Source: Tetradesmus obliquus
Lineage: Eukaryota > Chlorophyta > Chlorophyceae > Sphaeropleales > Scenedesmaceae
DNA: 64,000 nucleotides
Assembly (NCBI GenBank): GCA_030272155.1
Contig: CP126203.1
Coordinates: forward strand, 2,170,001-2,234,000
Direction of reading: 5' to 3'
The notes beneath the pieces are model-generated. The model saw only the letters and a list, made by a program, of their open reading frames with translations, ran no database searches and was not told where the DNA came from. Position 1 is the stretch's first letter; each line of letters opens with the position of its first letter. This document shows, piece after piece, positions 1,335 to 64,000 of the stretch. The position numbers were made by a program, and so were the translations under genes.

Positions 1335-3305
1335 ATGTCAGCACCACTCAAGCTGTTGCTGTGCAGGCTGATCCCACCCAGCATGATCGCGAGCCTCAGA
1401 TGTTTGCGCTACGCGTGCAGCTGCTGAGCAGCACACAAAAGTGTCACAATTTGCCATCCAAACACATGACATGCTGCCACCGCTGCTTCCTCACACCTTG
1501 CCCCTGAATGACCTTGCTAGGAAGCGGCTGGGTCACTGCACAACACAGCCGCTGCTGCACCGTCATAGTATGCTAGCAGACATACGACAGCGCTGCAACC
1601 CGCCTTGCTCCTGCATGAACTGATCAGGAAAGCGCATGGAGCAACCCTCCTGCGCTTACCCTGCTACTGCCCAACCCTCAGCATACACCCCAAACATAAC
1701 AGCTGCCACCACACCTTGCCCCTAAAAGAGCTTGCCAAGAAAAACAAGCTCCTGCTGAGGGTGGCTGGGTCAGTCGTGTCACACGTGCTGCTGCTTGATC
1801 ACTTGCAACTGCAGCATGCTACTACCGGCTGCTGCCACTCGCTGCTTCCACACACCTTGCCCCTGAATGAGCTTGCCAGGAATGCCAGGCTCCTGCTGAG
1901 AGTGGCCGGGTCAATCAACTCAGGCACAGCCTGGATGATGGCATCGATGTCCTTGGCTGCGCTAAGCAGTGTTTTGACCTGCAGCAGCAGCAGCAGCAGC
2001 AGGCAGCATGTTCCACTTAATTAAGGCACCGCCTGAGTGATGGCGTCAATAGCGTTCGCAGCGCTCAGCAGTGTTTGCAAACTGCGGCAAAAGCAGGCAG
2101 CAGCAGCAGCAGATGCATCAGAAGCCAGCCAGCCAATAGGCTCAGCGCTGCACGTGTGCAGCTGCCACCACTGTCGCAACGCCACTATTCTGTTTAAGTT
2201 GCAGCGCGTGCGGCCGAACAGCAAGGGCGCTGCCACCCCACCTGCTACGCGTCGCTGGCGATACGCTCCTCGCTCTGCAGCAGCATCTTGGGCCAGGTCC
2301 AACGGACACCCCTAGACAGAACTGCGGCCACCAAGCCCTGCTTGCGCAATACCAACACAACACGCCGCCACAAGCGCACCATGCCGCATGCTCCCACACA
2401 TATCCAGAACTGTGCTGACAGCTACCAAGGCAATTACAGCTGGCATATTTACTATTTGTTTAATTCCTCCCACCTGCTGTGCGTCGCTCGCAATGCTGTC
2501 CTCGCTCTGCAGCAGCGTCTTGGGCCTGCTGGCGATGACGCTGAACACGTCAGCGCTGGGGAAGGCCGTCTTGAGCAGGATGAGCTTGTTGGCGGCGCTG
2601 TTCACGTCCTCAGACAGCGTTACCTGGTGAGACAGATTGGCATGGGTTTGACAAAAAAGCAACAGCAGCAGCAACAACAGGGTGAGGATACCCAGGCTTT
2701 GTAATCAGTGCCTGTTTTGATCAGGATGAGCTTGTTGGCGGCGCTGTTGACATCCTCACACAGCGTGACCTGGCAAAAGTCAGCAAGCAGCAGCAGCAGC
2801 TTGACACACAACACAGTGGTGGACACTGCATGTTGTAAGCAGAAGCAGGATGGACAGGCTGGCAGCAAATAAAGACTGTGCTGTTGCATCATGGCCTTGC
2901 AGGCCTCTGCCGCCTTGGTGTCAGCAACTTTGGTTGCTTTCTGTTCTCTTTGACTCCGTCGATCATGCCTCTCACCCAGTCAGCCGGCTTCATCTTGTTG
3001 AGGTTTATCAGGTTGGGCATGAGTGCGTCCAGCTGCTCCAGGCCTTTCTGCACTGCAGCCTGATCCTTGCCGCGCTTCTTGGCGGACTGTGGGGCGGTGC
3101 AGCATAAGAGGCAGCAGGCAGCAGCGGCAGCAGCGGCAGCTGTGCGAGTCAGGTGAGCTGGCTTAGCACTAACGCGTGCAAAACTTCTTGCTGGCTGAAG
3201 CTTGGCTGTCTCTGCTACACCTATGGTTGTGTTGCAATCAGCTGTCCTGCTGCTGCTGCTGCTGCTGCTGTTGCAGGAGCAAAACAATCTCCAATGTGTG
3301 ATGTA

Positions 3306-3342
<37 letters not shown>

Positions 3343-3524
3343 CTCTTGACCTGCCGGCTGCGCTGTGTCTTTGGATGCGCTGCCTCTCATGCTGGCGCTG
3401 CTGGTGCCACCGCTGGCGCTGCTGCTGCTGCTGCTGCTGCTGCCTGATCTGCTGTGCTGCCTCTTGTTCTGCCTCCTGAGCTGCTTGCTGTGCTGCCTTT
3501 CGGGATGCACTGCTCCCGTGCAAT

Positions 3525-3572
<48 letters not shown>

Positions 3573-4936: not shown

Positions 4937-5476
4937 TCAAACGCATGCCAGGCCAGCAGCAGCCATGCCCTTACATGCACGCTTGTGCCGCTTCCAGTCA
5001 GTCATCTGGCAGGCTGCGCTGCAGTAGTGGCACCGGCAGACAGCGCAGCGCTTGCTTGCAGCTGCCGCCTCGCTCACTCGAGCCAGGCCCTCACAGCTGG
5101 GGTTGTTGCACACCAGCGGCAGCGGTGCAGCGGCTGCTAGCACCCTGCACAGCTCCAGCGCATCCATGTACTGCTGCTCTGTGATAGGTATGGCCTCAGT
5201 ACTGCTGGCTGTGCGTGCAGAAAAGAACCCCTGTGCATTGTCACGCCAGCCAGGCCACTTGGCCTCAAATGCAGCGAATGCTGCTGTCCACCGTGGGCTG
5301 CACTGCTGCAGCTGCAGCAGGTAGCCCCACTCGATCTGCTGGGCGCTGCTGGGGTGGCCAGCCCTGCTGCTGCTGCTGCTGCTGGCTGCACTGCTGCCAC
5401 CACCAGCTGACGGTCCTGTTGTTGCTGCTGCTGCGGCGGCTGCGGCGACCCCTGTCGCTGCTGCGTCAACCCCTGC

Positions 5477-5515
<39 letters not shown>

Positions 5516-7446: not shown

Positions 7447-7480
<34 letters not shown>

Positions 7481-8883
7481 CTGTGGTGTTGGTGCAGCAG
7501 CGCGGTGTAGACTGCCAGCAGCTGCAGCAGCAGCACCGCCACTGCAGGCTCCCGCCGCAAGCTGATGACAGCCTGCGCTGCTGCTGCGTCCAGTTGCCGC
7601 TGCATCAGCAGTTGATAGCAGAGCTGGTACAAAAAGTCCCCGCACGCTAGCTGCAGCCTGTGGTACAAGATCCACGCATCTGACCGGCTGCTGACGTCTA
7701 CTGGCGCTGCTGCTGCTGCTGCTGTGCCTGCTGAGAGAAGCCTGCCGTAGCACCGCAGCTGCCGCAGCAGCGGCTGTGCTGCATGCACCAGAGTGGGCAG
7801 TTCTGAGGGCACATGTTATGTTGCCCTGGCCCATAACGTAGGCAAATAAGCAGGACCTCGAACGTCGCCAGCAGCACTGGGCAGTCACCTTCGCGCGTGG
7901 CAGGCAGCCGCTGCTACCGCTGCTGCAGCAGCAGCTGTGCTAGCTCTGTCAAGCTGGCAAGCACACCTACACGAGCAGCAGCAGCAGCAGCAGCATCAGC
8001 AGCAGCAGCAGCAGCAACATACTGAGTTGCATTGTGATGCAGGTTGCTTGTCAACCGCCTGCAGTGCCCAGCCAAGCTTGCTGTGTGGCAAGTGAGGCAG
8101 TTGAGCAGATGTGCCGTATGCTAGTGTACTGCATGTTGAACGAGGCAATGCAAGTAAGCGCATGTCACAGGAGAACTGAAGCAAATTTTGACCACTAAGT
8201 GAGCACGTGAGTGGACAGAAGCCGTCCGCATACTCCTGTAAACTTGGCACCTCAGTGCTTCTGCACATTCAAACACCACAAGAAACACATTATCCCATCA
8301 AACCAAGTTATTGATAGCCACCATGCCAGACAAAGAACAGCAAAGCTTTTGGCTACACCCTTCAGCAGCAAACACACCCACCTGACTGAAGCAACTGCTG
8401 AGTCAATGTGGCTATGAGTTCAGCCACAGCTGCCATGCAGCTGCCGCCCCTTGTGCAGATGTACAACAGCTCAACGAGCCCAGACAGCACTTGCATGCCG
8501 GCACGCCAGACTCCTTCTGTCGCATTGAGCTGCACCACGCTGCCATAAGACACCTGCAGCATTGCCGCCAGCTGTTGCGGCTGCTGCTGCTGCAGCCACA
8601 CCATCAGCACACCAGCACTGTGCACTGGATGGTGGCGCAGCACGCCCCTCAGCAGCTGGACTGCTGCTGCTCTGCCTGCATCAGTGTTGGGGAGTTCATC
8701 AGGCAGGGTGTTGCAGAGCTTGAACAGGCTGCTGCTGCAGCTGTCTAGCACTGCAATTTGTGCTGCAGTTGGTTGAGGAGGCAGGGGTTGCTGTAGCAGC
8801 TGTGTTACTTGGGGACTGCACACCAAGCTGCTCAGCTTGTTTGCTGCCTCCTCTGCTTTCTTCGCACGCTGAGCAGGTCGCAT
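4937..8883 (-). CDS. MYND zinc-finger protein
   Basis: Four exons, 8883-8382, 7802-6751, 6495-5783 and 5660-4937, sum to 2,991 nt (996 residues) with no frame break. The body is Ala/Leu/Gln-rich and helical, with a poly-Gln run near 7450-7480 and poly-Ala/Ser runs near 5350-5520. The C-terminus carries a MYND finger: CNNPSC, then CAVCRCHYCSAACQ and WKRHKRAC, giving paired zinc ligands. MYND fingers bind proline-rich partner proteins, often in chromatin or assembly factors; the rest of this protein I do not recognise. MYND proteins with long low-complexity bodies are numerous in chlorophytes (family knowledge). The donor at 6750 (GTGCAG) is weak; a nearby stronger-looking GTGACA donor at 6716 would break the frame. 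Confidence 0.75.
5654..5755 (-). repeat. 34-bp x3 repeat carrying a 3' splice site
   Basis: Three identical 34-bp units (5654-5687, 5688-5721, 5722-5755). Read on the minus strand each holds a CTGATT branch-like element and a GACTGCAG acceptor. The unit nearest exon 4 gives the in-frame join at 5660. Confidence 0.9.
7968..8021 (+). repeat. (CAG)n tract in MYND intron 1
   Basis: Imperfect CAG run, interrupted by CAT, inside the intron 8381-7803. It reads as CTG on the sense strand. Confidence 0.7.
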
Positions 8884-9938: not shown

Positions 9939-10050
9939 GCTTGAGGTCTGGTGCCATTGCGACAGCAGCCATTGGTGGAGGTGCCACACCATCTGACAAG
10001 AGTTGCACCTCCACCAATGGCTGCTGTCGCAATGGCACCAGACCTCAAGC
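9939..10050. repeat. Perfect 46-bp inverted repeat, 20-nt spacer
   Basis: Left arm 9939-9984 and right arm 10005-10050 are exact reverse complements (46 of 46), separated by 20 nt. A short palindrome (GCACGACT-TGA-AGTCGTGC) follows at about 10049-10067. Transcription through it would give a long perfect hairpin. Confidence 0.95.
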
Positions 10051-12186: not shown

Positions 12187-14935
12187 AGTGATGAGTATGA
12201 CTTGTCAGCGCTTGACAACGGCAACGAGACTGAAAGCATTGACGAGATCGCCCAGGAGGCAGCACACAAGCTTGCAGTAGACTCGAGTGACATTGCAGAG
12301 CACATCATTGCAGAGCATCAACATGATAACATGATTGATGAGGCAGCCGGCAAGCGCAAAAGCAGCAGCAAGGGCAGCAGCAATGGCAGCAGCAGCAGCG
12401 CATTTAGCGTCAGCTGGCCGCTGGGAAGCAAGAAAGAAGCCGGCAGCAGCAGCAGCAGCAGCAGGGGTGCGGCAGCGCAGCAGCAGGGCAAGGGTGACCA
12501 GCAGCAGCAAGCAGGCGGCAGCCAAGGCCGCAGCAAAAGCTCCACCAGCAGCAGCAGCAGCGGCGACAAGCAGGCAGCACGTAGCGGCGGCAAGCAAGGC
12601 AGCAGCGGCAGCAGCGGCGGCGGCTCCCGCGGCAGCAGCAGCAGCAGCAGCAGTGCGTCTTCGCGCCTGACTGGTGACACTGCCATAGGGCGTGTCGCTG
12701 AGAGCAAAACCGGAGTGGCTGTGGTGGTGCTGAAAAAGGGCAAGGCTCGGCTGTTTGAGGCTGGATCACCCATGGTGAGCCTGCGTGTGTTATGATCACA
12801 TAACAGTAACAACATAACAGTAACAACGTTGCTGAGGTTTCTGCCAGTTTGCCAGGTGCAGCCTGCAGCACATGCAGCTGGTGTGGAGTGCTTGTACTCC
12901 ATTCTATCCATGTTCTGCGTGTACTCCGCTGGCGGCAGGTGCACAGTGGCGCTGCTGACTCAACAACACATTTCAATCTGGCAGTAACATGCTCAGTAGC
13001 ATGCTTTCTAACTGTTGCACCTGGTATGCTGTGCGGCTGGCTGCAGGTGTACAGTGGCGCAGTCAATTCTGTGTTGGGCAGGCCTCCTCCTGCTGCTGGT
13101 GATGTGGTGGTGGTGGCAGGTCACACTTGCCTGTCGCTAATATGTTAGTAACACATCAGTAACTGTTAAGCCTGCTATGCTCTGCCGTCACCTGCAGGTG
13201 TACAGTGGCGCAGTCGACTCAGTGGTGGGCAGGCCTCCTCCTGCTGCTGGTGATGTGGTTGTAGTGGCGGATCACACTTGCCTGTCACCAATGTGTTACT
13301 AACATCTGTTGTGGGCAGGCCTCCTCCTGCAGCGGGTGATGTGGCGGTAATAGCGGATCACATTTGCCTGTCACTAATGTGTTACTAACACGTCCGTCAC
13401 TGTTACGCCTGCTATGCCCTGCCGTCACCTGCAGGTGTACAGTGGCGCAGTCGACTCTGTGGTGGGGCGGCCGCCTCCTGCTGCTGGTGATGTGGTGGTG
13501 GTGGCGGACCATAACATGACACCCATTGCTTGGGGAGTGTTCAACCCGGTGTCAATGTTCAGGGTCAGGTGGGTGCTGCTTGTGTTGTCAGCAGAAAAGG
13601 TGCAGCTGTCAGCCGCCGCCTACAGCAACCACTCCTCATGGTGGGAACGGCTGTCTGTTTCGCTCTTATTGGAGTCTAGGTGCGTAGCGCACGGCAGCAG
13701 CAGAGTCGTGCCAGCAGCAGGCAGGTGATGTGGTGGTAGTGGCGGACCATAACATGACCCCTATTGCTTGGGGCCCCCAACACGCCGGGCGTGTTCAACC
13801 CAGTGTCCATGTTCAGGGTCAGGTGGGTCTGCTTTTCGTGTCAGCAGAAAAGGTGCAGCTATCAGCAGCAGACAAAGAGATTGCTTGCTGCAAGTGCAGG
13901 CGACAGCGCTGGACGTCACACCTTCTTCACACGCACTTGCCTCACCCGCTGCCCCTGCTTCTCTCTCCCCCAACACCACCCACACACAAACCAGCCAACA
14001 GGATCCTGCAAGTGGAGTCTGAGGCACCTGCAGATGACAGCGCCGTGCTGGACATTCCAGCGCTTGTGGAGCTGCCGGTGCAGCAGGCAGTGGCGCCTAT
14101 GATTACACTTGTTCCACGTGCTGCCCCCTACCGTACTTCCCAACCTACAGGATCCTGCAGGTGGAATCCGAAGCTCTGGCGGACGACAGCGCAGTGCTGA
14201 GTGTAACATCTCACACTTCCGCAGTGCTGAGTGTAACATCTCACACTTCCGCTGTCCGCTTCTGCAATCTCCATCCAACCTACAGGATCCTGCTGGACAT
14301 GTCACTTCTTCTTCACATACAATGTCTCACTCGCCGTCCCCTGCTTGTGTCTTGCCCTTTCACACAAACCAAACAGGATCCTGCAGGTGGAGTCTGAGGC
14401 CCTGGCAGACGACAGCGCCGTGCTGGACATCCCCGCCCTAGTGGAGCTGCGGGTGCAGCAGGCAGTGGCGCCTGTGATTACAATTGTTTCACGCGCTGCC
14501 TCCTGCTGTACTCCCCAACCAACAGGACCCTGCAGGTGGAAGCGGCAGCTCTGGCAGGCGACAATGCAGTGCCAAGTGTAACATCTCACACTTCCGCCGT
14601 CCCCTGCTGCAATCTCCAACCAACAAACAGGATCCTGCAGGTGGAGTCTGAGGCACTTGCAGATGACAGCGCAGTGCTGGACGTCCCCGCCCTAGTGGAG
14701 CTGCGGGTGCAGCAGGCGGTGGCGCTGCGAGCCACACTCGGCCTGCCCAGCAAAACAACGGATGCGCTGCGGCTGCTGAACAGCGAAGGGGACAGGCTGT
14801 CAGGCGTGATTGCTGACATGCTGGGCGAGGTGGTGGTCGTGCAGGTGGGTGTTACTTGTTGTTACGCACTGAGGTCAATGTGAGGTGGTTACGCAAGTGG
14901 CGGCCCTGCTTCTTGCTGTTCTGCATGGTGTGCAG

Positions 14936-15438: not shown

Positions 15439-15886
15439 CAGGCACAGCCGCCGGGAGCAGATGCTTGCAGATGCTGTGCAGGTGCATGAAGCTGGTGTGA
15501 CCTTCCTCACCACACCGGAATCCGGCCAGAAGACAGGGTTTTACGCAGACCAGCGCCTAAACCGCGCATTCATTGCCAGCATGGCGGCTGGCAAGACTGT
15601 GTTAGATCTGTGCTGCTACTCTGGGGGATTTGGCATCATGGCGGCTGCTGCTGGTGCTGCTGCTGTCACTGGCGTGGACTCCTCTGCTGCTGCTGTGGAG
15701 CTGGCGACAGCTAATGCGGAGCTGAACGGGCTTAGTGACAGGTGGGTGTGTGAATACAATTTACAGTGGAGATTTCTGAAGCTGCTGCTGTAGTGTGATG
15801 CTGCAGTGGAGCTGGTTACAGGTAATGCGGAGCTGAACGGGCTTGACGACAGGTGAGCGTTTTGGTAAAGTTACAGATTGCACTTC

Positions 15887-16017: not shown

Positions 16018-16056
<39 letters not shown>

Positions 16057-16309
16057 GCAGGTGCTGCTTTGTGCGTGATGACGTGGCCACCTTCCTGCGT
16101 GCTGACCAGTGCTGGGAAAAAACTCTTGCACACCTGTCAAAGCCAATGCTCATCGCTGCTGCTGCGGTCGTCCCTGTTGCTGCTGCTGCTGCCGCTGCCG
16201 CAGGTGCTGCTTTGTGCGTGATGACGTGGCCACCTTCCTGCGTGCTGCACTGGAGATAGCCTCTTGCACACCATAAAGCCAATGCACATCGATGCTGCTG
16301 CGGTCACCC

Positions 16310-16349
<40 letters not shown>

Positions 16350-17748
16350 AGGTGCTGCTTTGTGCGTGATGATGTGGCCACCTTCCTGCGTGCTGCGCTG
16401 GAGGCTGGCCAGGGCTGGGACATTGTCATCCTGGACCCCCCCAAGCTGGCACCCAACAGGTGCGGCTGCGTGTTATGTTATATGTTACTTTGTTATGTTT
16501 CATAATTGTTGCAACTTTGCAGTGCTGGAGGCTGGCCAGGGTTGGGACACTGTCATCCTGGACCCGCCCAATCTGGCACCCAACAGGTGCAGCTTGAGGC
16601 GGTTTGTCAAGCATCATGTGTGCACAATCCGGAATCTGTCAGAATTCCTCGACGATTGTCAAACTCCTGATGGATGTATCTAGCAGATGCTGCAGGTCTT
16701 TGCTGCTGCGCGCAAGCCACAAGTACCGCCGCCTCAACGCCAGCTGGCACCCTCTGACGTAATTTGCAGCGCATCTGCTATCTCAAATCACTGATCACAC
16801 GTTGTCACATTTGTTGACGTTGCAGGAATTCGCTGCCCCGCGCCAGCCACAAGTACCGCCGCCTGAACGCGCTGGCGCTGGGTGTGGTGCGTAGCGGCGG
16901 CCTGCTGATGACCTGCAGCTGCAGCGGGGCCATGACACAGAGCGGAGGGCTGGCAAAAATTGTGACGGATGCGGCTGGCGAGGCGGAGCGGCAGGTGCGT
17001 GCCTGAGGTATCTTACACAGTATGTGTGTTGTAATGTGTCTCACTTGGTTGCAATGTGTCTCCACTCGTGCTCAGCCCGTGTGTTATGGAGGTAGTGGTG
17101 TGTTGCCTGTGGTGGCTGGGGCCTACTGACGACCTGCAGCTGCTCTGGCGCCATGACGCAGAGTGGAGGGCTGGCCAAGGTTGTCACAGATGCAGCAGGA
17201 GAGGCGGAGCGGCAGGTGCGTGCCTGGATTCTATTGTGCAGTAGTTGTTTCAGTTTGTTGCTGCACTTGCGCTCAGCAGGAGTGTGTTTTGGGGGTGGTG
17301 GCCTGCTGTATGTTGTGTGTTGGGGCCTGCTCATGACCTGCAGCTGCAGCGGGGCCATGACACAGAGCGGAGGGCCTGGCCAAGGTGGTCACAGATGCGG
17401 CAGGAGAGGCGGAGCGGCAGGTGGGTCAGGCGGTCTGCTGTGTTATGGATTGTATTAGTCTTACGTGGTTACTTGTGGGAAGCGCATGCCTGTGAAAGGG
17501 TTGCACAGTGTAACGTTGAACCAGCTGCAGAACAGGGGCTTGTCCGAGACTGAATTTGTTGTGGAGGTGCGGTTGCCTGCCCAGCACTTAGCGTGCATGC
17601 CGGCACTTGCAGTGAACATTGGTCACAGCCACCTGACTTGTCCTGTTGGCGGCGTCTCCATCCTGAGCTGGCTCATGTCGAGTGAGGGTCGTTGGCTGGA
17701 CCTACTTGTGACTGGTGCCTGCCTCTACTATAATAGCTCCAACCTGGC

Positions 17749-17798
<50 letters not shown>

Positions 17799-22584: not shown

Positions 22585-25500
22585 TCAATACAAGCCGCGG
22601 CTGCCCGGCTGCTGCTGCTGCTGGCTGTTGCCTGCCGCACTGCTGCCGCCCAGCGGCCCAAACTGCAGCCCAGCCTCACCTGCAGCAGCAGTCACGCTGC
22701 CGCCACTGCCAGCTACAGGAATATTCGCCTGCTCACGTGGCTGCTGGCTGCTGCTGCTGCTGCCACCTGCAGCGCTGGGCTGCTGGCGGCTGCCAGCTGC
22801 GCCAGCCCTGAAGGCCCTGAAGAAGCCGGAGGGCTCCCTGCTCTCCTCTCCATCGCTGTCGCCATCGCCGCTGCCACGCAGGCCCTGCCGCTCGTGCTCA
22901 GCTGCCTCCTCCTCATCCAGCTCGTACGGCGCCTTGCTGTCCTCGCCTGCTGCTGCTGCTGCTGCAGTCCTGGCTGCTGCCCCATCGGCCTCCTTGTTCA
23001 CCAGCTTGGTGATGAAGTTTGGCACGCTTGGGATGTGCCTCAAGAAACTGCATGAGAGGACAGCGGCGCAGCACGCAGACAGCAGAAAGGCAGCGGCGAG
23101 TTAGTGGCAGAGCAGCAAAAGCAAGCAGGAGCTGCACAGCTGCCTGCCACCCAGTTATGTACCCTGACCTGTCAGCGCTGCAACAATCTGCTGAAATACC
23201 TAGCACGGCAGCCACACAAGCGCACCTGTTGAATGGTGCAGGGCGCTTGCTGTGGCGGCTCGGCTTGGGCGCCTGCGCGCTCATGCGCCACCAGCCATGG
23301 CCCGCAGCGTGGTCCAGGTCTTTGCGCGTGCAGATGCCCACAATGCGGTTCTGCGCATCAACCACAATCAGGTGCCGCAGCCCCAGCAGCACGAACGCCT
23401 GCAGGCAGAGCAGCAACCATCAGTGTGACAGCAAGCATGCCATATTAATGTTGGCAAGGACAGCCTCGTTCAACAAAAGCACGGTACAGCAGCTTAGACT
23501 GCAGGCAGTTGGAAGGGAAGTTCAACAGGACGCATAAGCCACTGCATCATCGCGCAGCATTCTGGTGCAAACACACTGTGATAATCCGGATGCTTCGTGA
23601 TGCGCCCTGCTGCCCACCTGGTGTGCCCGTGAGGCGCTGCAGTCCCGCCGCACTGTGAAAGGGCTGCGGTTCATGTAGGGCCGCATGTCAATGAACAGGC
23701 TGCTCAGGTCCACGCTGCCGTTCTGCAGCTGCAGCGCCTCCAGCGGCGTCGCTGTGGCTGACACGTAGCGGTTGTGCGTGAAGTAGCGCCGGAAGAAGGT
23801 GCGCATCTCAGTCTGCATGCGGCGCAGCGGGCAGCACAGGCACAGACAGGAGCAGCTGTAAGCTAAATGTGCAGCAATGCGCACGCACGGAGTGCTGACT
23901 GCCTTCCAGTCAGATGCAACCTGCTGCCTGGCATCAGCAACGGCATGTGCATGTTTGTCCTTGCCGATGACCAGCTGGAAGTATGCCACATCAAACCAAG
24001 AGCACGCTGTCCATGGCTGCTGCTGTGCCCCTGCACTCACCTCCAGATCAATCTCCTCCTTCTCGTTGTACTCGCGCCCCACAGGCCGGCCGTGCTGGTC
24101 ACAGAAGTGGCGCCGCTGCAGCAGCACCAGCAGCTGGCTGCGCAGAATCACACCCTCCAGCCTGCCGCCCTCACAGCTAGCCACCACACCACCGCCCACA
24201 GCACCAGCAGGCACTGGGCTGCCGCCAGCTGCAGCCGCAGGTGCTGCCCTGACAACAGCAGCAGCAGCTGCTGCTGTCACCTCTCCCATGGCAGCAGCTG
24301 GCACGGGTGGCGCAAGGCCAGGGGACCCCGGCTCGGGTGTAGGGGTGCCTTGCAGCATGCGCTCCTGCATGGCCCCCAGCTGAGCCAGTGACACCAGGCT
24401 GCCGTGTGAGCCAGCAGCGCCGTGGTTCAGGCCGCTACGCACAATAGGCCCAGCATCGCCGCCTTCAGGCGTGAATGCGATGGGGAAGCCGTTGTGTGTG
24501 GTGCTGTGCAGTGCTGCCAGGACGTTTGCCACTGACTCGACTGGCCGGAAGCCCACCACGCCTGTCGCCATGATCATCTCAGCTGTGAGTGTGTGCAGCC
24601 TGCAGGAAGCATCAGCAGAGTGCAGCATCAGGGGCAGAGTCAAGTAGCACCAAGTGTTGCATTATGTGCTGGCACAGCACCCTAATTTCCCTGTCATGAG
24701 CGGATTGCTGCGACCAACCCTCATACAGGTCAGCGCTGAAAGCAGCAAACACAGCAATATATAGATGCATGCAGAGAAGTGCCTGCTTACGGACACAGAC
24801 AGTGCCTGATACGCCTGGCAAAGGCAATTCAGCAGTCAAGACACAGAACACCCTACCCACCTGTGTGGCGCCTCGTCGCGCAGGAAGTACAGGTTGCCGA
24901 TGCGCTCCAGCTCGCTCTCATACACGCCGTCGTGGTGGATGTGGTGCGCCACCCAGTTGGCGACCACCACGCTGAGGATGATGCCAAACATAAACTCAAT
25001 GCCGCGCGTGCCCTCCATCACCAGCACCACCAAAGACACATTGGACCTGCATACACCCAGCAGCAAGTGTGCAGGGCGCAAGTCGACAACCGCAGCAGCC
25101 ACAGCTGTATGCCGCCAAACAGCACCTGCTGCTGCCCCTGAATGTTTGCAAGCCTGTGCTTACATGTTGCGCATTTCCAGCCACTTCCGATGCACAGAAC
25201 GTTTGTGTTTGCAGATGACCTCCATACCTGAACACTCCTGCCAGCACGCTGGATGCTGCCATGACGCCGTACACGCCTGGCTGAATGTTCCAGTGCTGCA
25301 GCCAGTCGCGCAGCGCTGAGCCCCACAGGCCACCCCATGCAGCACCAACCTGCAGCAACAGGCAAAGCAGCAACTGACATCAAGCACCTTTGCTTCCTGC
25401 CTTGCATTTCGCTTAATCATACCTGCATGTGTCCCTGCAGCTGCTGCACCTGTTGCATCTGCTGTGTCAGCTCTGCGCTGGTTGTGAAGTGACCCTTTTA

Positions 25501-28500
25501 GCACGCGCTCACCATGATTGATGGCATGAACAGGCCACCTGGAATGGCGACTCCTGCGCCAACAGACATCAGGATGAGGTAGATCACCACGAACAGCACC
25601 AGGCTGCCCTGTGTGAAGTGCACCACGTAGGCCTCGCCAGGGTTGTGGCCCATGCTGAACAGGTTCACAATGGTGTGGTGGCTGCTGGACAGGAACAGCG
25701 TCGCCAGGTCGTTGTGCTCGCCCTCCTCACACCTGTTGCAAAGCAGCAGTCCTTGCGAGTCACTATCACGCTGACGCCATCATCATGCAGTCAACATGCA
25801 GCAGTGGCACTGAGGTTGTCAACCTGGTGTGTTTCAGCCACCTGGGTTCAACACACTCCTAGACTCCCATTGCAGCAGCAACAAGCACAGAGTTTATTTC
25901 CTTGTCTTGAACCAAGCAATTGCAGCCGCTGGCACTCACAGGAACTTGATGCCGTACTCCTCGCCCCACTCAGGGTTCTTGGGGATGCACTTGCCGGCAG
26001 TCCAGGCAAAGAAGAAGCCGCAGGTTGTGCACATGAACGCCAGGCCGATCACCTCAGCAATGCGCAGCACATGGCGAGTCTTGCTGGCGCGCAGCTTCCA
26101 CAGCCACATGCGCATGCTGTTGAAGGCAGCGCCAAGCAGGCCAGCCACTCCTGCAAGTGGTCAAGCACGCCGGCGTGACAACATTGAAGAGCAGTGCATG
26201 CATAAGCCCAGGAGACAGCAACAGCAGCACACTGGTCCCATGTTCTCATCAACTGTTGAATTCAACTGTTGAACATTTGCCACCAGCAGCCTGACTCCAA
26301 ACACATGCGCCGTCAATAACCAGCACACGGCGTCTGGTGCACGCGCACCTGCATTGATCAGGATGAAGGGCAGCTGCATCAGCCAGTCCCTGTTCTCGTA
26401 GTTGTGCACGCCGGTGAAGGAGATCATGCCGTGAGCAGCATTCTTGCTCAGCGACTGCAGTGTGAAGGTGGCGCACACTGCAGCCAGGAAGCACCGCCAG
26501 CTGGTCTTCCTGCAAGCAGCATATGGTGTGCAACAGCCCACAGTTCACGTCTTGTCCTGCCTGGGTATGCATAAACAAGTAAACATCATATGCATATCAT
26601 CTGCTCCAGCGACTCAGCTGCATGCACAGCAGCTCCAGCCACTGCTGTCTAAGCGCACGTTCTATGCTCTCTTTGCTGCCATGCCAGCTGCACCTCGATG
26701 CCAATTGCCGATACGATACTTGCCTGTTCCAGAAGCTGCAAGCCTCCTCCATGGCAAAGAGCACGCCGCCAATAGGTGCCCCGAAAGCTGCAGAAATGCC
26801 CGCCGCCGTGCCAGCTGACACAAATTCGCGGTGATCTGCACAAAAAACAATGAGGTGTCAGCAGCCATTGGCTTTAACTGCAACATGCTGCACACACAAA
26901 CCCAGCAAGCACATGTGGAATTGATGAGCCACTGGTGATGGCGGTGCTGCTGCTACTGCTGCCGCAGTGGTGTTTGTAGCAAGCACTCCATATGCTGCCG
27001 CGCACCTGAATCACTGACAATGTCGTCCAGAACCTTCATCTTCTCCAGTATCTGCGCCTCGCGCGACTTGGCACGCTTGCCAAAGCAGCTGAGCCAACGA
27101 CCAGAGCGGATGCAGGCTGCAACGGCAGAGGTGGCAAGGCAGCAAATCCGTCAGCAAATGCACTGCTGGCAGCAGCGCAGGTACATCCAGCCTTTACAGC
27201 CAAAGGCAGAGGTACCACAAGCTGCATTGATCCTGCAAGCTGCTGCAGGAGTAGGTTACAACTGTTACTTGTGGGAACAGATTGCTGCCGTCCAGCACAG
27301 CACCATCCTGCAAGCACTGCTTGCTATGCATTGCTCGCAGAAGCTGACATATCAGCCACTCACTGCACTCTGCGTAGGTGATGACCGATGCTAGGCACGC
27401 GCCGATGTGCACCATGGGGCCCTCCGGTCCCATGGGCAGGCCCGCAGACACAGAACAGCAGGTGCCAACAAACTTGGTGATGAGTGTGCGCAAGCGCAGC
27501 AGGTTGGGCACGTGGTTGCCGTTGAGGTACGCCATGACCAGGGTAACGCCAGCACCTGCTGCTTGGGGCGCCCAGTACTGGACCTGCAAGCATCAAGCAG
27601 CAGCACACCTGCTGTAATGCACCGGCACAGAGATTTCTATGGTGCAAGCCAACTTAGGAAAGAGTGTGCTGTAGCACATGCTGGAGTCTTAGCAGGCGCG
27701 CTCTTAAACTGAACTCTTAAGCCCAGTAGGTTTGCAGCTGATGCCATTTCTTCATTGATGCATAACAACACACAGAGCAGCGACATTGTAAGCATGCTAA
27801 GCATGCTCTGGTTCATCGCTGACGCTGCCTTCTTGATTCAGATACTGCGCAGCTGCTGCCGTTGGCCACCCCACCTACCAGTGCTACTGCAAAGGAGACC
27901 AGCAAGCAGCTGTAGGCAGCATGCCACAGGTAGGCAATGAACACCCTGTGCTCGCCCTCCTCGTCAAGCAGCTCTTGCACGAAGCCATTCTTCCACTCAA
28001 ACATAGTTCCCACAGTTGAGGACATCCATACAGCAAAGACGCCAGTCAAGATGCCAGACACCATGGTGATGATGAACTTGGCGAGTGTGTGGCCTGTGTA
28101 CCTGCAGGCAACCACGTGTCCCGGGTCAAAGTATTTTGCAGGCACTTGAACAGGCTGCACACACACCCGCAGGTGCATGCATACACAGCAGTGGCAACAA
28201 CAGCAGCTGCATGTGATGTAAGCTACGTGCTTGGGTGCCTCCAGCACCCAAACAAGCACTGGGATCATCACTACTCCCTCTGATGAGCTCTCAAATGAGC
28301 TTACCCGAACAGGTGGCGCTCCTTCTTGGCTGCTTTCATGCGTTCATAGAAGATTTTGTTCTGCACAGGCTCGTAGTCCAATGACTCCGAGACACGCTGG
28401 TTCGGCGCGTTCTTAGTGCCAAACACCTTGGTCATGATAGTTTCAGTGGAATTCTGAGATTGCTGGGCAGCTGCAGAGCCCCTGAAGGTCACGTTCCGAG

Positions 28501-28540
28501 CCAACAGAGGGCTGTTCCCCCCACCCTCGTCTCTAGCCAT
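22585..28540 (-). CDS. CLC voltage-gated chloride channel/exchanger
   Basis: Fourteen exons: 28540-28305, 28101-27879, 27583-27364, 27116-27006, 26835-26724, 26509-26349, 26150-25940, 25732-25513, 25349-25228, 25046-24861, 24599-24041, 23812-23618, 23398-23226, 23047-22585. They total 3,192 nt (1,063 residues) in frame. CLC motifs in order: [13 protein letters not shown] where GSGIPE is usual, [14 protein letters not shown] with the gating Glu, [20 protein letters not shown] with the proton-path Glu, and [14 protein letters not shown] for GxFxP. After the membrane part come CBS-type segments ([40 protein letters not shown]) split by an Ala-rich insert, and a low-complexity tail. By family it moves chloride or nitrate across an internal membrane, and the second Glu suggests proton exchange. 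Intron 5 uses a GC donor. Confidence 0.92.
26718..26724 (-). other. GC-AG intron donor in CLC intron 5
   Basis: Exon 5 ends AACAG and the intron starts GCAAGT. Joining to GAAGACC at 26509 gives [12 protein letters not shown], which matches the CLC consensus SFWN..LTWR. The only nearby GT donor (GTATCG, four bases on) puts exon 6 out of frame. Confidence 0.85.
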
Positions 28541-38023: not shown

Positions 38024-41006
38024 GCGTCTGCTGCTGTGCCGCTGCCAGCAAAGGCAGCAGGAGCCCAAGCTGCACCATGAACCATGCCCTGCAAGCAGCA
38101 ACACAGGAAGGCGTCGCAGTGTGGTCGAAGCTTGGGGTTCAACAGCTATGGTGTACAGCAAAGTAGGTGTGCTTGACTTGGCCTTGCATCAGTTATGCTG
38201 ATAAAGGGGACAGCCGCAGCTGCTCCTTGCCCCCGCCTTGCTGCTTGGCTAGTTAGCTTGTGACACCTTACCATTCAGCAAGTCGTATTTTGGCACAAAT
38301 ATGCACTGCACTGCACTGCACTGCACTGCACTGCACCGCACCGCACCGCACCGCACCGCACCGCACCGCACCGCACCGCACCGCACCGCACCGCACCGCA
38401 CCGCACCGCACCGCACCGCACCGCACCGCACCGCACCGCACCGCACCGCACCGCACCGCACCGCACCGCACCGCACCGCACCGCACCGCACCGCACCGCA
38501 CCGCACCGCACCGCACCGCACCGCACCGCACCGCACCGCACCGCACCGCACCGCACCGCACCGCACCGCACCGCACCGCACCGCACCGCACCGCACCGCA
38601 CCGCACCGCACCGCACCGCACCGCACCGCACCGCACCGCACCGCACCGCACCGCACCGCACCGCACCGCACCGCACCGCACCGCACCGCACCGCACCGCA
38701 CCGCACCGCACCGCACCGCACCGCACCGCACCGCACTGCACTGCACCGCACTGCACTGAACCGCACCGCACCGCACCGCACTGCACTGCACTGCACTGCA
38801 CTGCACTGCACTGCAGCCTGCCCCACGCACCATTGCTGCAGCGTCCAGCAGCTGCTGCTGCTCTGCCGTCATCAGCGCTGCCTCCTCTATGTCGTCATCA
38901 AACAGTAGGTCAGCCTCCTCCCCTAGGTCTGCAGCATAAAGAGAGATAACCGTGTTGTTACCTTTTTGATGGGATGTATGCAGCTCATTATGATGGCAGC
39001 TGTGGCAGAGGCTAGAGTACCGGGGTTAAAATGTGTGTACATGCTTGCAGCTGATGGAGCTCTGCTGATGTCTGCAGCCTGGTCACCCTTGTCAATAAAC
39101 GTCATCAGCATTGTCAAAGTCAAAGTCAACATCATCATCGCCTGCCAGCTCATCAGCACCCACCTAGGTCAGCATCCAGGTCAGCATCCAGGTCAGCATC
39201 GTCAAAGTCAAAGTCAACATCATCGCCCGCCAGCTCATCATCATCTGCCTCGTCATCTGCTGCCGCAGCTGCTGCTGCTGCTGCTGCGGCCCCTGCAGCA
39301 CATGCGCCAGCAGCAGCTGCTGCCGCGCTGCTGCGGCTGCCGCCACGCCTGCAGCATGCAAAGTCAATTGGATGCAGCTTTTACAGATCAGCGCTGGCAA
39401 GATGAGAAGTTCAAGGGGCTCTATGCAGCAGCCCCTGTCTAGAGTGGCGGAGATATGCTGTTTGCCGACGTCTGTGACGGCTTAGCCCACTTGCTGTGCT
39501 GCAGCTGTTGGCACAAGCCATGGCAGCTGTTTGCATCAAAATTGCGAGGCTGCTGTTGGTGCCGTCTAGATAGCCCCACAGCTCCTTCAAGCACTTGTAC
39601 CTGCTTGTGTGCACCTGTTCAGAAGCATACCAAAGAGACTAACATCATGATGATGAGACTGGCAAGGGCATGCAGAAACGCACAGCAACAACACCTAGTC
39701 CAGCAGGAGCAGACTGTACATTCACGAAGTAGCTGATGACTCACCCGCGGGAGCGCTGGCTCCTGCGCTTGTGCGCATACCAGAAGTTCTTGACTGCAGC
39801 GTTGGTGCGCCCTGGCAGCATGCGCGCAATGGCTGCAGGTGGCACAATGCAGCAGGACAGCAGAATGCACATCAACAACGTCAGCTGCTTGCGGCGTGCT
39901 TGCAGGAATGGCGGCGTGCTGTGCAGCACACACTGAGGGTTCAGCGCAACCGCGCCTCCTGGCAAGGTTTGCTTGCAGGAAAGGCACAGTCTACCACATT
40001 GGGGTGCATCCACTGTGAAGTTCGCATTGGGTGCTGCCGTACTTGATGCGCTGTATGTTTCATTTCTTGAAACACAGAATGCAGGGCTGTGTGCTGTGAG
40101 ATTGCTGCTGCCGGTGGCTGCTCGCACCTGACCAGTTGTTTCCGAGCACCTTGTGAGCCTGCAGGCAGCAGCACAGCAGCACACAACACATCACTTACGA
40201 GATCTTTTCAGCCTGCATCCAGGTACAGGCTGTTGAATGCATCAGCTGTTTCACAGCAATTGAGCTGGCTGGGGCAGGCATTGACTGCAAGCATTGCTAA
40301 TCGCTTAGTATCTTTTGCTGGGGTATTTCTGCAGGGGCAGCAGGTGCAGCTCACCTCTTTGACCACAGCAACCTCCCAATCTGTGAATGGGTTGGTGCTT
40401 GTGTGCATAACCCCTGGCTGCAGGTACGTCCTCCACCTGCAACGAAAGTACACCACAATCAGAAGCAGCAAATGCAAGTGAGACAATGCTAGATTGATTT
40501 ACAGCAGCCGCTGATCAGTGCAGTGCCAGGTTGTGCAACACTTGCATGCTGGAATGACTAGCTGAACAGGCATACGTGTGGTGTGGTGTGCATGCAATGA
40601 CAGGGAGCATAGCATACCTGTGGCTGCATGCTTTGCTGGTTCGCCCCGGCAACAGCGCTGCTATCTGTGCCCAACGCTTGACTCCATAGCGTGCTACTGC
40701 AGCCTTGAGACATTGGTCTTCCTGCAAGCAGAAAGTGGTAGTCCAAAGCAGCAACTATCTGTTTCGTTGCTCCAATCGTTTGTGTGCAAATGCTGGTAAT
40801 GCGGTGTGGAAGTCAGCAGCGACAGACAAGCAGACAGCTGCTGGGTGCATGACTAGCTGTCTGCTTCTCATTGCCCTGGCTGCACTCTCTTGTGTGGTTT
40901 TCTGCTGCCGCTGCTGCCATATGTGCTGCCTACTGCTGCCAATGTCAGCAGCGCTGCTGCTGCCGCTGCTGCCAGCTCTGCTGCCCACTGCCGACAATTG
41001 TTGCAG

Positions 41007-56280: not shown

Positions 56281-56312
<32 letters not shown>

Positions 56313-59149: not shown

Positions 59150-59188
<39 letters not shown>

Positions 59189-61121
59189 GAGCAGGCAGCA
59201 TCTTCACCACCCTGCATGCCATACGCATGGAACTGCTAACCAATGCCATATCTGACCATTTCAGCCATTATATTCGTCTTCTGCCTCCCGCAGATGCATA
59301 CACACGCCCGCAGCTAGCAAAGATAGAGGTGTGCTCCAGGAGCAAGGCATATTCAGCAAACGGGGCAGGCCTCGTGTCTGCCTTCTCCAACAGCACCTTC
59401 CACCTCAAAAACCAGGCCACAGCAGCGTGCGCAGAAGCAGTCGGCAATGCAGTGAAGGGCATGTGTGCTGGGGGTGACCCTATGGCTACCATCAGCACAA
59501 TTTCGAGCACTTGTGCTTCCGCAATGGTGGAGTTCCAAGCCAGCAGCATGAGCGGCATTGACATCACCCCAGCAACAGACATGCCGCTGCTGAGTCCGAC
59601 CAAAAAGGCATTCACGCTAGCTTGCGCCAGCGGCTGCGGCAATGCGCAGACCTCAGCTGAGGCCGTTGCGCAATCCAGCGCCTGCGCTTGGATGGCTTCA
59701 ACCAAGGGCTGCAATGCGGTGCGGGTGGCGCTGACAGGCCAGAACTACGCGCAAGCCTTCATCAAAAGCACTGCAGCAGCCTGGTCTAATGCATGCTCTC
59801 TGGGTTATGGCAGGGCCACCAGTACTGGTACTGCACAAGCCAAGTCCACTGCAGATGTGCTGTCCAGGGCGTTTGGTGAGGTAGTAGCAGCAGCCTGCAG
59901 CAACTGCGATACCTGCAAATGCAAGCCGCTGCCGCCCGGCTGGACATATGACAAGTCAGATGACATCTCAAAGGCGGCTGCTACGAGTGTGGCTGGCCAG
60001 TTCACAATGGCCAAGGCGATCTCGCAGGCTGTTGGCGCATACTGCGACTCTGATAAGAGTGCTAAGGCCCTGCAGGCGGGCGTGAATGCTACGATGAACA
60101 CGATGGCTGTTATTCTGGCGAATGTGATGGCGAAGACAACTGCGGATGCAAGTGCACAGGGAGTGGCCATGTCATGCGCCGGCGGCTACGTCAGCCAGCA
60201 AATCAAGGTGAGCTGTGTGCTTGTTGGATTGCCGGTTGCATACCCTTCTTTGCAATCTTCTTGAGGTGTTTCAGGAGTGCCTCAAGTGTTGCAAAATCAA
60301 GCAGCTGTGTCAGACTGCACATATCATGCATGTCATGGGCCTGCGGCTACGTCAGCCAGCAGATCAAGGTGAGTTGAGAGTTCCCAAACTGTAGTACACA
60401 GCAACGTAGCAGTACACCAATGGATATATATAACAAGTCACAGTATCTGTTGCTGTTTGCACTGTCGTGGTCGCCGGTTGGAATTGTTTCCTCATGCTCT
60501 ATCTGCAAGCGCCTAGGGCGCTGCATCTTATGATGCCTCTGTCAAGCCATACCTGTCAAGCCATATCATGCTGAGGGAGAGGGCACCTGCACAGCTTGAT
60601 TTCACTTCAACCTGATTTCAACATGTCCCCACCAGCTTCAACTGCTGTTTGCCCACCTGTTGCTGCGCTGCACACCCCACAGGCGTCCAAGGTTGCGTTC
60701 ATCAACGCCTTGACAGACGCAAGCGCTGTCGTGTTCAACCACCAGTGCGCAGCAGCACATAGCCGCATGAAGACAATGGCCAATGCACTTTCTGACAGCA
60801 TAGACGAGTCCTTCGAGTCCATTTCCAGCAAGTGTGCAAAGGCAGCAGCAGCCGCAGAACCTGTTACAGTCAACGCAGAAGACATTGTGAAGAAGACCCT
60901 GACACACAACAAGCCGGTGGTGGCTTCCATTGCTGAGGCATTCCAGGATGCAGTCTCATGCGGCTGCAAGCCAGGCAACTGCTTCTGGTGTGTTGCAAAC
61001 GAGGCAAACAAAACGCTGAGTGCCAGCAGTGTGTCTGCATTTGACCTTGGAAATAATGTCACGGGCCAGTTCCAAGCGCCACTGAACTGGAACCAAATGG
61101 CGGGTATCGCCGTGGCCGGCG

Positions 61122-61168
<47 letters not shown>

Positions 61169-61327
61169 GGCATTGGCGGCGGCATCAGCAATGGCAGCAG
61201 CGGCAACAGCAGCAGCACCGCCAGCAGCAATAGCAGCAGCAGCACGGCTGGTGCTGCTGACACTGGCAGCAGCACACCAGGATCTGGTGGCAGCAGCAAC
61301 AGCAGCAGCAGCAGCAGCAGCATCTAA
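58832..61327 (+). CDS. Secreted Ala/Cys-rich protein 4
   Basis: Three exons, 58832-58997, 59294-60207 and 60683-61327, give 574 residues in frame. Signal peptide: MKQLLCASLLLLAAASCSC. Exon 2 starts YTRPQLAKIEVCSRSKAYS and carries CAGGDPMATISTISSTCASA, ACASGCGNAQTSAEAVAQ and CSNCDTCKCKPLPPGWTYD, each with a counterpart in protein 3. Exon 3 has CGCKPGNCFWCVAN and ends in a long Ser/Gly/Asn tail (poly-Ser coded by AGC at 61123-61170, then GIGGGISNGSSGNSSS). The tail replaces the Ala/Pro tail of protein 3. Sites of N-x-S/T type are frequent, which fits a glycoprotein of the wall or matrix (inference). The end of exon 2 with its donor is duplicated in the following intron. Confidence 0.85.
60165..60375 (+). 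repeat. Duplicate of secreted protein 4 exon 2 end plus donor
   Basis: GGCTACGTCAGCCAGCA(A/G)ATCAAGGTGAG occurs at 60184-60211 and 60345-60373 with the preceding GTCATG.GCC.GCGGCTAC context. Both donors are usable and the exon frame is the same up to the border. Confidence 0.9.
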
Positions 61328-62346
61328 ACCTGTAGCGTTGTTTCTCCTGTGTAGGCTAGTTGAAACTGTCTTCAAAGTAGTGGTAGAATAGCTGGCCTGT
61401 TGAGCTGGTGTGACGTAGTAGGGGGTAGTACAGTGTTAGGTCAACCTGAATTAGCATTGCATACTGGTTTGTGGTGGATTCTCACAAGCAGCTCGTGTGC
61501 TGGCTCTGCCTGGCAGCAATGTCAGCAAGTCGAGCACGCATGCGTGCAGCTGCTACGTAGTGTAGCAACGTCTTGCCTAGCACACTGTGGATGTCTCGTG
61601 GCGTATCAGAAAAGCACATCAAACACAAAGTACGATGTGTATGCATGGTTGTGTCAGCAGGGTGATCAGGACTGTCAGGTTAGCTGCAGTGCAGCCTTGC
61701 ACATGCTACAGTGTGGCTGCACAGCCAAGTTGGCAGCAGGCCCAGGGCATGTGCCGTATTGCCAGCAGCAACGCTATGGCTTAAAAGCCAGGTCACCAGC
61801 TTGCAGAATAGCTGCAGGGGATGTCTTGGCTGAGCCACAAGCAGGGCCAGCTGTACAGCGACATCTCAGTTTGGCTGGTGTACTGCCGTACCGTACGGCG
61901 TACGGACACCTTCAAGTGGCAAGCACGCTGGTGCTGTTATGTGGTTCAAAAAAGCGCTCAGTTGGTGGACTCAGGAGTGCTTTTAGACATGCTGCTGTTC
62001 ATTTACAGAAGTTGGTGTGCGCAGGCTCAGGCCTGAGCTCAGGCTCGAACCTAGTCAGGCCCTGTCAGTACAGTACCACGATTAGTGCAGCAGTTGTTGC
62101 AGCTGCGACTCTAAAACCATAAGCACTGCAACCCTTGACCAGGTGTCAAGTATGGGCCGTGTATTGGGGCTGCGATGAAGTTGCTGATCGGCGCAGGCAT
62201 CACTCATTCCTAATGACAAGCCCTGGTGGTGTTAACCCGCCAGGCTGAGCCAGCTCTTCATCTAATCGTGCCACTCAATCTTCTGGGCGCACGTTCACAT
62301 AGTTCTCAGCCTCAACTTGTCTGTAGTCAGTCTGTACCTGTTCAAC
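61328..62346. other. Intergenic
   Basis: 1 kb between secreted protein 4 and the hydrolase gene. CCGTACCGTACGGCGTACGG (61888-61907) is a small palindrome-rich patch. A GCCTGAGCTCAGGCTC inverted repeat lies near 62029-62044. No gene is supported. Confidence 0.5.
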
Positions 62347-64000
62347 ATGCAGCGAATCGTTGCAATCCTGCTGCTTGGAGCGGCCCTGGTCGCTCAGGCC
62401 AGCCCTGTTCCTGCCAAGCAGGTGCAGGACTTTGCTAAGAGCCACTCCAACAAAGGCAACGCCGTTGGCGTCGTTTCATGGACCGGCAAAGGAGCTGGAA
62501 AGGAAGTCAAGCTGGGTGGGTGCTCATTGGCAGCCGCGCGCAGAATCATTATTAGTTGCATCTTGTATAAGCGCGATCGATCATTATCAGGATCCGGTCC
62601 TCCGTGGACCTATCATGTGGGAGGTCGCAGAAAGCACATTCCACGGTGCCAGGTGCCACCGCCTACAAGGGAATTTTGTGATTGTTCTATGTTTACAATT
62701 CACGATAGTGATTGATAAGGGCTGCGAGATGGCGTGGTGGGAAGATGCTGCTCATCATCGCACTCACCAGCAGCAGCAACCCCATCCTCACCACCACACG
62801 TTCCTGCTGCTGCTTTCTGGCCTCCTGCAGCCGGCCTCGATGCTTACGTGGCCACCCCCAGCGGCCCGTTCAAGGCAGCTGTGCTGATGATCAGTGATGT
62901 GTTCGGATGGAGGGTGGATGCCGCGCGCGTGTGGGCAGATAACATGGCCAAGCAGGTAGGGTCATTTGGGGCACCATGTGCTGCTCCCATATAGGGCCCA
63001 GCTGCAGTATTTTGTTCCTTTACATATGTTTTGCTGAGTTGTTGGTCCTGAGCAGTGCATATCCCATGCTGGCAGTGTGAACATGGCCAAAGAGCGCAGC
63101 TGCCAGTGCCGCATGCTGTTCACTGCTCACTGCTTGCTGCCCACTCTCATGCAATGCCAGTCACTGCTTTGCTTTTACGTTAATGCCTTCGCTAACTTGG
63201 ATGTACCTCAAGTCCCTTCTCCCTTGTTATGGCCGCTGCTGCTGCTGCTGCTGCCGCCGCAGGGCTTCCTGGTGGTGGTGCCGGACTACTTCAAGGGCGA
63301 GCCCCGCAAGAAGACCGACAGCCCAGACACCTTCGCAGCCTGGTGAGGGTGGAGGGTTTTGGTACATGGTGTGGGGTTTAAGTGATTGGGTGTTATGTTT
63401 TGACTAATTCAAGGGCGAGCCCCGCAAGCAGACCGACAGCCCAGACACCTTTGCAGCCTGGTGAGGAGCGAGGGTTTTGATGGTTAGGGGGGAGTGGGGT
63501 TTGATTGTAATGTTTTGATGGACTACTTCAAGGGCCGTGCCCGCAAGAAGACCAACCATTTTGACATCGTTGTAGCATGGTGAAAGCAGCAGCAGCAGCA
63601 GCAGGGCTGTGCCATTGGCGCAGCATGCAGCGACACATGTTGACACGCTGCTGTCAATCACCTTGTCAGCAGCACTTTTCATACCCAACATTGAAATCCT
63701 GTTCAAACGCTCTGTGTTGTCTGCAGGCGCGCCAAGTTTCCCCGCAAGACTGTCATGAAGCAGAGCACCGACATGATCGCAGCCATCAAAGCTGCCTACC
63801 CATCTGTGAAGAAGGTTGGAGTGGCAGGGTGAGCCACCTACGGCAGCAGCAGCAGCATCAGCAGCAAACGATACAGCAGATGTGCCTTCATATCAGCAGC
63901 TTCTTGGTTGCTCCTGCTCCTGAAACAGCCACCCTTGCATGTGTGGTGATGCATTCGTGTCTGCAGCTCTCGTGTGGTGCAGCTGCAGCTGCAGCTGCAG
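62347..64000 (+). CDS. Dienelactone-hydrolase-like secreted protein (5' part)
   Basis: Exons 62347-62515, 62831-62955, 63263-63342 and 63727-63828 join in frame (158 complete codons and a partial one); the gene runs off the window. A signal peptide (MQRIVAILLLGAALVAQASP) is followed by YVATPSGPFKAAVLMISDVF, GWRVDAARVWADNMAKQGFL, VVVPDYFKGEPRKKTD and a segment ending SVKKVGVAG. This is the N-terminal half of an alpha/beta-hydrolase of the dienelactone hydrolase type (family pattern E/D-x-F-G...aeqGY.v..PD...G). The nucleophile Cys motif would follow in the next exon, outside the window, so activity cannot be judged. The end of exon 3 with its donor is present three times. Confidence 0.8.
63263..63590 (+). 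repeat. Three copies of hydrolase exon 3 end plus donor
   Basis: TTCAAGGGCGAGCCCCGCAA with the following codons and the GTGAGG donor occurs at 63288-63348 and 63408-63470. A more diverged copy at 63522-63588 codes DYFKGRARKKTNHFDIVVAW before GTGAAA. The text after the donors (GGAGGGTTTTGG / GCGAGGGTTTTGATGG) is shared by the first two. Confidence 0.9.

Follow-up and report, generated by a model that had tools for sequence, protein, structure and literature searches.

Why do the introns of unrelated genes in one short stretch of an algal chromosome contain second copies of the edges of their own exons? The stretch in question (here, the window) comprises 64,000 nucleotides of Tetradesmus obliquus, positions 2170001-2234000 of contig 13 in an assembly of 104.66 Mb and 17 contigs. 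An earlier note had reported tandem partial copies of exons in six genes of the window and had ascribed them to an ongoing genome-wide process rather than to selection on one gene. The published Tetradesmus (Scenedesmus) obliquus genome is summarized as 109 Mb with 57% G+C (PMC5966456); G+C of the window is 0.52-0.62 in 2-kb steps. We read the six named genes base by base, and exon-edge copies were indeed present in every one of them. We conclude that, more likely than not, short direct tandem duplications arise often, are tolerated when they span a splice site, and so leave half-exons as decoys within introns.

The repeats run overwhelmingly in one orientation, and this holds well beyond the window. 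Self-alignment (BLAST) of the window, after masking of simple repeats and microsatellites, gave 53 pairs less than 3 kb apart, all direct except two inverted pairs at 9.6-10.05 kb. The outside sample consisted of 25 loci of 10 kb at round coordinates, whose content was not inspected beforehand; one of these (L010) is all N and was excluded throughout, leaving 24 loci (240 kb) for repeat counts. The window was cut into pieces for comparison with these loci, and repeats within 2 kb of each other were counted as near pairs. There were 51 direct pairs and 1 inverted pair in the window and 201 direct pairs versus 4 inverted pairs in the other loci. When each of 31 pieces was dinucleotide-shuffled three times, the shuffled sequences together contained 0 direct and 2 inverted pairs. 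Direct near pairs occurred in 20 of the 24 other loci and were absent from four; under the masked filter, the window itself had none at 20-30 kb and 40-50 kb. Because 20 of the 24 other loci carry near direct pairs, the window is not special in its repeat content.

The position of the copies relative to exons was determined from gene models made with a small home-made hidden-Markov gene finder, whose donors resemble CAG/GTGAG and whose acceptors resemble GCAG/G (the slash marks the exon-intron boundary). One further locus (L024) is a single satellite, which was kept in the repeat counts and left out of the gene models, leaving 23 modelled loci. For 413 strong predicted exons (score at least 5 and longer than 30 bp) in the window and these 23 loci, 124 exon edges were accompanied by a copy in the intron next to them; the counts are approximate, since the 413 include some copies. 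Such edges occurred on 14 of the 17 contigs, in the window as well as in 16 of the 23 modelled loci. The distance from edge to copy was 96-164 bp in 86 of the 124 and a multiple of three in 40. There were up to four copies per edge, with a mean divergence of 11.8% from the source sequence. Identity reaches 98-100% in some pairs, which makes the word "ongoing" in the earlier note plausible for the process.

Placement was strongly one-sided. Among exons with a score of at least 8 and a length above 60 bp, partial copies of acceptor edges lay upstream of the exon in 50 of 59 cases (9 downstream), and partial copies of donor edges lay downstream in 63 of 68 (5 upstream). Of the 14 exceptions, the seven in the window, which were read individually, proved to be copies miscalled as exons. 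Partial copies outnumbered whole ones by 127 to 22. This side-specific placement fits tandem duplication across one splice junction, and the partial copies do carry one exon edge into the adjoining intron, as had been proposed. Whole-exon duplication followed by truncation was rejected, since truncated copies are seldom on the wrong side. We likewise rejected functional tandem (mutually exclusive) exons, given the 127 partial versus 22 whole copies and their mostly frame-breaking indels; a minority of whole-exon duplicates exists.

The same pattern appeared in a gene chosen independently, from a paper on the transcripts of phytochelatin synthase (PMC12899622). Three exons of this gene were matched by Pfam, and copies were present at five of their six edges. 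That paper describes, for Scenedesmus acutus, a full-length coding sequence for one 645-residue protein (PMC12899622), as might be expected if splicing omits the copies. Together with the copies in the sampled loci and contigs, this gene upholds the claim that the process is genome-wide and not confined to one gene.

These results suggest the following sequence of events. A duplication crossing a donor would leave the exon intact and place the copy downstream in the intron, and one crossing an acceptor would place the copy upstream of the real exon. The spliceosome could go on using the splice site joined directly to the exon body, leaving the mRNA unchanged, and what is left over would be a half-exon with a spare splice site within the intron. 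Such duplications would pile up, lengthen introns and decay without conservation of frame. Judged from the DNA, the inner copies are probably not normally spliced in. Intron growth, which the earlier note had named as one possible outcome, follows directly from the insertion of partial copies in introns. For the other two outcomes named there, alternative splicing and new exons, the frame-breaking indels, the frameshifts or stop in some window copies and the edge-to-copy distances (a multiple of three in 40 of the 124) give no support. Contiguous arrays in which the intron half is also duplicated are found in the OCT-like gene of the window and in the 23 families whose intron halves are still alike (class A, below).

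No array is clearer than the one downstream of the OCT-like exon ending near 31322. Here a unit of 114 bp, made up of the last 48-50 bp of the exon, the donor and 60-odd bp of intron, is repeated four times at 31389-31780 on the plus strand. If the GTGTGAGT donor is used, the real site (window 31320-31326) reads CAC/GT and the inner copies read CAG/GT (three) or CGG/GT (one), in which case the site with the poorer last exon base must win. Other exons of this gene also have copies, all on the plus strand. Acceptor-side copies of the exon starting near 32500 lie at 32243-32283 and 32383-32423. The exon at 33427-33531 has acceptor-side copies at 33007-33072 (frameshifted), 33158-33222 (two 1-nt deletions) and 33303-33368, and a donor-side copy at 33697-33726 with 3 synonymous and 0 non-synonymous differences. 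An acceptor-side copy of the exon starting at 33996 lies at 33850-33904. A (CTGTG)n array occupies 33540-33643.

In the plus-strand methyltransferase gene (Pfam matches Methyltrans_SAM and PUA_3), base-by-base reading found copies at all five exons examined, acceptor-side copies lying upstream and donor-side copies downstream. The PUA exon is at 13435-13568, with the donor set from the copy alignment (the gene finder extended it to 13679). It is preceded by acceptor-side copies at 13047-13117 and 13198-13274, the latter with 7 synonymous and 0 non-synonymous differences, and by a partial copy without an acceptor at 13305-13360; a donor-side copy with a 16-bp insertion follows at 13721-13822. 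The exon at 14631-14844, which one gene-finder run starts at 14536, has acceptor-side copies at 14002-14096, 14151-14199 (again 7 synonymous and 0 non-synonymous differences), 14377-14471 and 14526-14572, the last being 105 bp upstream and in an open frame into the real exon. A donor-side copy of the exon ending at 15741 lies at 15796-15852. The exon at 16352-16459, which encodes a DPPK stretch, has acceptor-side copies at 16061-16104 and 16204-16255 and a donor-side copy at 16518-16586. The exon at 16826-16994 has an acceptor-side copy at 16699-16748 (2-nt insertion) and donor-side copies at 17112-17215 and 17324-17420 (1-nt insertion). CTG arrays at 16019-16068, 16310-16359 and 17750-17798 lie immediately before acceptors (CTGCAG or CCGCAG); the first two are included in duplicated units, and such arrays may help to start duplications.

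Several observations weigh against the duplication account in its simplest form, in which an intronic copy ought to decay like the surrounding intron and an exon half that outlasts its intron half is unexpected. Intron halves could be scored in 103 families, the remaining 21 of the 124 having no scorable intron half. They were still alike in 23 families (class A) and intermediate in 16, and in 64 of the 103 (class B) they fell below a global identity of 0.62 beside exon halves that were 73-100% identical. The low intron identity of class B is true by construction; the abrupt step at donor position +6 is not. In an identity profile limited to families whose exon part is 20-140 bp long and whose distance is below 320, exon-side identity in class B (61 families) was 0.63-1.00, mostly above 0.8, right to the junction. 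At class B donors, identity was 0.87 at +1 to +3, 0.68 at +4, 0.84 at +5 and 0.45 at +6, and mostly 0.2-0.35 past +15; over all families, it fell from 0.82 at +5 to 0.53 at +6. Class B acceptors kept an identity of 0.80-0.93 over the last four intron bases, followed by a more gradual drop.

The differences between exon copies and their sources point in the same direction. The ratio of non-synonymous to synonymous differences (N/S) was 0.77 (251 to 328), compared to 1.30 expected for a neutral copy and an exon changing only synonymously at an equal rate (binomial P 1e-10, with the kinship of copies ignored). In hand-framed genes of the window, with one copy for each of 13 edges, the ratio was 24 to 48 (0.50; P 6e-5), the gapped or partial copies at 13305, 13721, 16699, 17324, 33007 and 33158 being omitted from the codon table. 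Differences in class B exon copies fell on the three codon positions as 76, 80 and 240. Exon halves had 35 indel runs in 97 pairs (0.055 per mismatch), compared to 188 runs in 54 pairs (0.202 per mismatch) in the aligned intron halves of these same families, which points to renewal, constraint or alignment cutting. In 33 exon-free duplications, the 24 indel runs (0.074 per mismatch) included 3 whose length is a multiple of three. Of the exon-half runs, 32 break the frame and 3 are multiples of three, and some window copies contain frameshifts or a stop. The copies look like non-coding DNA that has diverged from its source in a mainly coding-like way. Sequence exchange, with either the real exon or diverged alleles, could produce this, as could a period of constraint. 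Not everything is explained by simple neutral decay, and gene conversion alone, by our own reasoning, predicts a higher rather than a lower N/S.

The concentration of duplications at exons also counts against the account in its simplest form. Among 170 non-redundant pairs, 48 were exon-free, compared to 86.7 (standard deviation [SD] 6.7) expected under random placement, and both copies lay within exons in 9 pairs versus 4.6 expected, an excess inflated by copies miscalled as exons. The shortfall of exon-free pairs persisted when only pairs of 92% identity or more were considered (33 pairs; 11 exon-free versus 18.9 expected, SD 3.0). Exon edges are thus over-represented among duplications, partly because exon halves remain recognizable longer and some called exons are copies.

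Class B is nevertheless tied to class A by residual similarity of its intron halves. In a test of 83 families, local similarity of the intron halves (p<0.05) was detected in 17 of 57 class B, 13 of 15 intermediate and 11 of 11 class A families, which implies that at least some class B families began as ordinary duplications. Within the duplication account, the survival of the exon half beyond the intron half would most likely be due to recombination or gene conversion where only the exon and the splice consensus match, the partners being copies of one edge or well-diverged alleles. A tandem gene pair in the outside sample (L021, 1242-1916 and 4894-5656) may illustrate such exchange. Both members match the chlorophyll-binding family (52 matches in the genome), with one exon 97% and another 87% identical and introns that are largely unalignable except for repeats and one stretch; the intron adjoining the 97%-identical exon partly aligns, and an unalignable intron stands beside an exon in which 15 differences are synonymous and 2 non-synonymous. 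This patchy exon identity is a possible sign of gene conversion and fits conversion in patches. We put forward, tentatively, that edge copies form a genome-wide reservoir that exchanges sequence with real exons, so that exon edges evolve as small concerted families; equally tentative is the corollary that the exon half is renewed or protein-constrained and the sequence past the splice consensus is free. Conversion as the entire answer was rejected because of the low N/S, and coding constraint on the copies as the entire answer because of the frame-breaking indels.

Rather unlikely, in our view, is that recombination among highly diverged alleles made these arrays, which would then be young duplications with half of each array derived from another haplotype, one with introns too diverged to match and exons that differ chiefly synonymously. 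This idea would account jointly for the synonymous bias and for the saturation of introns, and the L021 paralogue exon with its unalignable intron shows the pattern that it predicts. Nine class A families (of 23), selected and summed by eye, differed at 42 of 440 sites in the exon half and at 35 of 492 in the intron half, which is notable because constraint should make the exon half more alike. However, an allelic synonymous divergence near 0.2 has to be assumed; exon halves identical at 40 of 40 (L023) and 41 of 42 (L018) sites occur without detectable intron similarity; and identity does not show the predicted fall toward the splice site, in a profile confounded by alignment ends.

We consider it unlikely that the copies arose by templated insertion at breaks (synthesis-dependent repair), in which edge stretches and unrelated filler are copied into the intron and class B never had a duplicated intron half. 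Several near-identical copies are separated from their source by a non-matching spacer, such as the 43-bp pair at 7482-7524 and 7608-7650 of L023 (100% identical, distance 126), and in vertebrates, proximal repair duplications reach 619 bp and some contain filler (PMC2671141). That filler is only 1-68 nt there, however, and templated insertion leaves unexplained both the loss of the match past the splice consensus and the one-sided placement. It is also at odds with the residual intron similarity of class B.

A further alternative, to which we give little credence, is that selection keeps the copies as alternative splice edges or splicing decoys, with protein sequence and splice site conserved. 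The synonymous bias (for example, in the PUA-exon copy at 13198), the match of donor bases +1 to +3 in class B, and the codon positions of changes unique to one copy (31, 25 and 80) speak for this possibility, and the low indel rate of exon halves relative to intron halves raises its odds slightly. Against these stand the frame-breaking indels, the frameshifts or stop in several window copies, and edge-to-copy distances that are a multiple of three in less than a third of cases. Most of the copies read show a single recognizable splice edge, and duplicated pieces of the methyltransferase and of an L023 exon that we take to be proteasome-like would be expected to harm the protein. Finally, an error of assembly, such as an artefact or the end-to-end joining of collapsed haplotypes, is very improbable because the copies differ from their source by more than a tenth on average and reach four per edge; they are also cut at one end, nearly always on the splice-consistent side, and are spread over most contigs.

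Outside sources of the copies were also considered. A genome search with the DNA of exon 16826-16994 matched only itself and its three local copies, and exon 24281-24599 matched only itself; no homeologous second gene copy as source was found for the two exons tested. An introner-like or transposon-derived element was rejected because exon 16826-16994 has no unlinked matches in the genome and because, in an all-against-all comparison of the window and the 24 loci, a single 58-bp match joined different loci at E values up to 1e-10.

The kind of event is known; what is surprising is its density, its concentration at exon edges and the protein-like divergence of the copies. To our knowledge, a density of 124 edges per 413 strong predicted exons has not been described before. 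Gao and Lynch (2009) reportedly described internal gene duplication with intron creation, and Zhuo et al. (2007) are said to have traced introns to tandem arrays. Those systems share with this genome the intragenic tandem duplications that carry splice sites, whereas most units here span one exon edge only. Literature searches listed no paper that, judged by title and the beginning of the abstract, reports copies of this kind in green algae, Scenedesmaceae included.

Two systems resemble ours more specifically. Intron gain in potato RdRp (PMC4974935) likewise involves a short direct tandem duplication with splice signals inside it; in that case duplicated exon or intron-exon sequence becomes a new intron, whereas here existing introns grow and receive half-exons. 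Under the AGGT model of intron gain by tandem duplication, the duplicated AGGT would bound the new intron and the mRNA would stay as it was. In vertebrates, proximal repair duplications are closely linked and short, and four of 824 have partial exon/intron donors; copies within 50 bp of each other were excluded from that study as tandem duplications (PMC2671141). In the present genome, by contrast, exon edges dominate and placement is one-sided.

Copies of this kind supply, at many edges together, material from which alternative splice sites, longer introns and altered exons could arise, and such a genome allows the fate of duplicated splice sites to be followed quantitatively in large numbers. 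Because our own gene finder called several copies as exons, we caution that decoy half-exons may mislead gene prediction, the mapping of RNA and the inference of proteins in this group. A sharp and testable puzzle is the synonymous bias seen in copies that do not preserve frame, with recombination, conversion or hidden use as candidate answers.

The remaining genes named in the earlier note add shorter examples. The Pfam search covered seven proteins or fragments (two genes in part) of eight predicted genes, the ClC-like gene and a minus-strand gene at 51.7-54.2 kb being left out. The helical-repeat gene (minus strand), whose protein had no Pfam match, contains donor-side copies of the 3' end of exon 1856-1956 at 1497-1534 and 1715-1775 (copy edges 1497 and 1715), and an acceptor copy is also present for exon edge 1956. 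Exon 2474-2623 of the same gene has a donor-side copy at 2242-2294 (copy edge 2242) and an acceptor-side copy at 2714-2769 (copy edge 2769). In secreted protein 4 (plus strand), a donor-side copy of the exon ending at 60207 lies at 60329-60368. The hydrolase (plus strand; Pfam match DLH) has a donor-side copy of the exon ending at 63342 at 63402-63460, which contains a stop codon, and a second, more diverged one at 63520-63579. The copy of the acidic stretch of a MYB exon, at 39100-39154 on the minus strand directly after the donor, was found by eye and escaped the masked BLAST search. The copies had been said to keep a splice site, which usually holds; in the MYB copy, no donor is visible. 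Their size, given previously as 40-200 bp, needs correction: the copied exon stretches in the window span ~30 to ~104 bp.

Copy load differs strongly between genes, as indicated by a channel gene at 23226-28554 (minus strand), presumably ClC-like as judged by eye from its predicted protein, which has ~12 well-predicted exons and no self-alignment pair. Two sampled loci consist of long tandem repeats: L022 (C14:1600001-1610000) is in its entirety a 4,310-bp direct repeat of 100% identity, and L024 (C16:1100001-1110000) is filled by a 1,689-bp repeat of at least 99.9% identity. Rfam at gathering scores gave no match in L022, L024 or L033. In the window, a (GCACC)n array of ~103 copies occupies 38303-38815, and a palindrome of ~112 bp at 9939-10050, which is 90% self-complementary, is among the very few inverted repeats.

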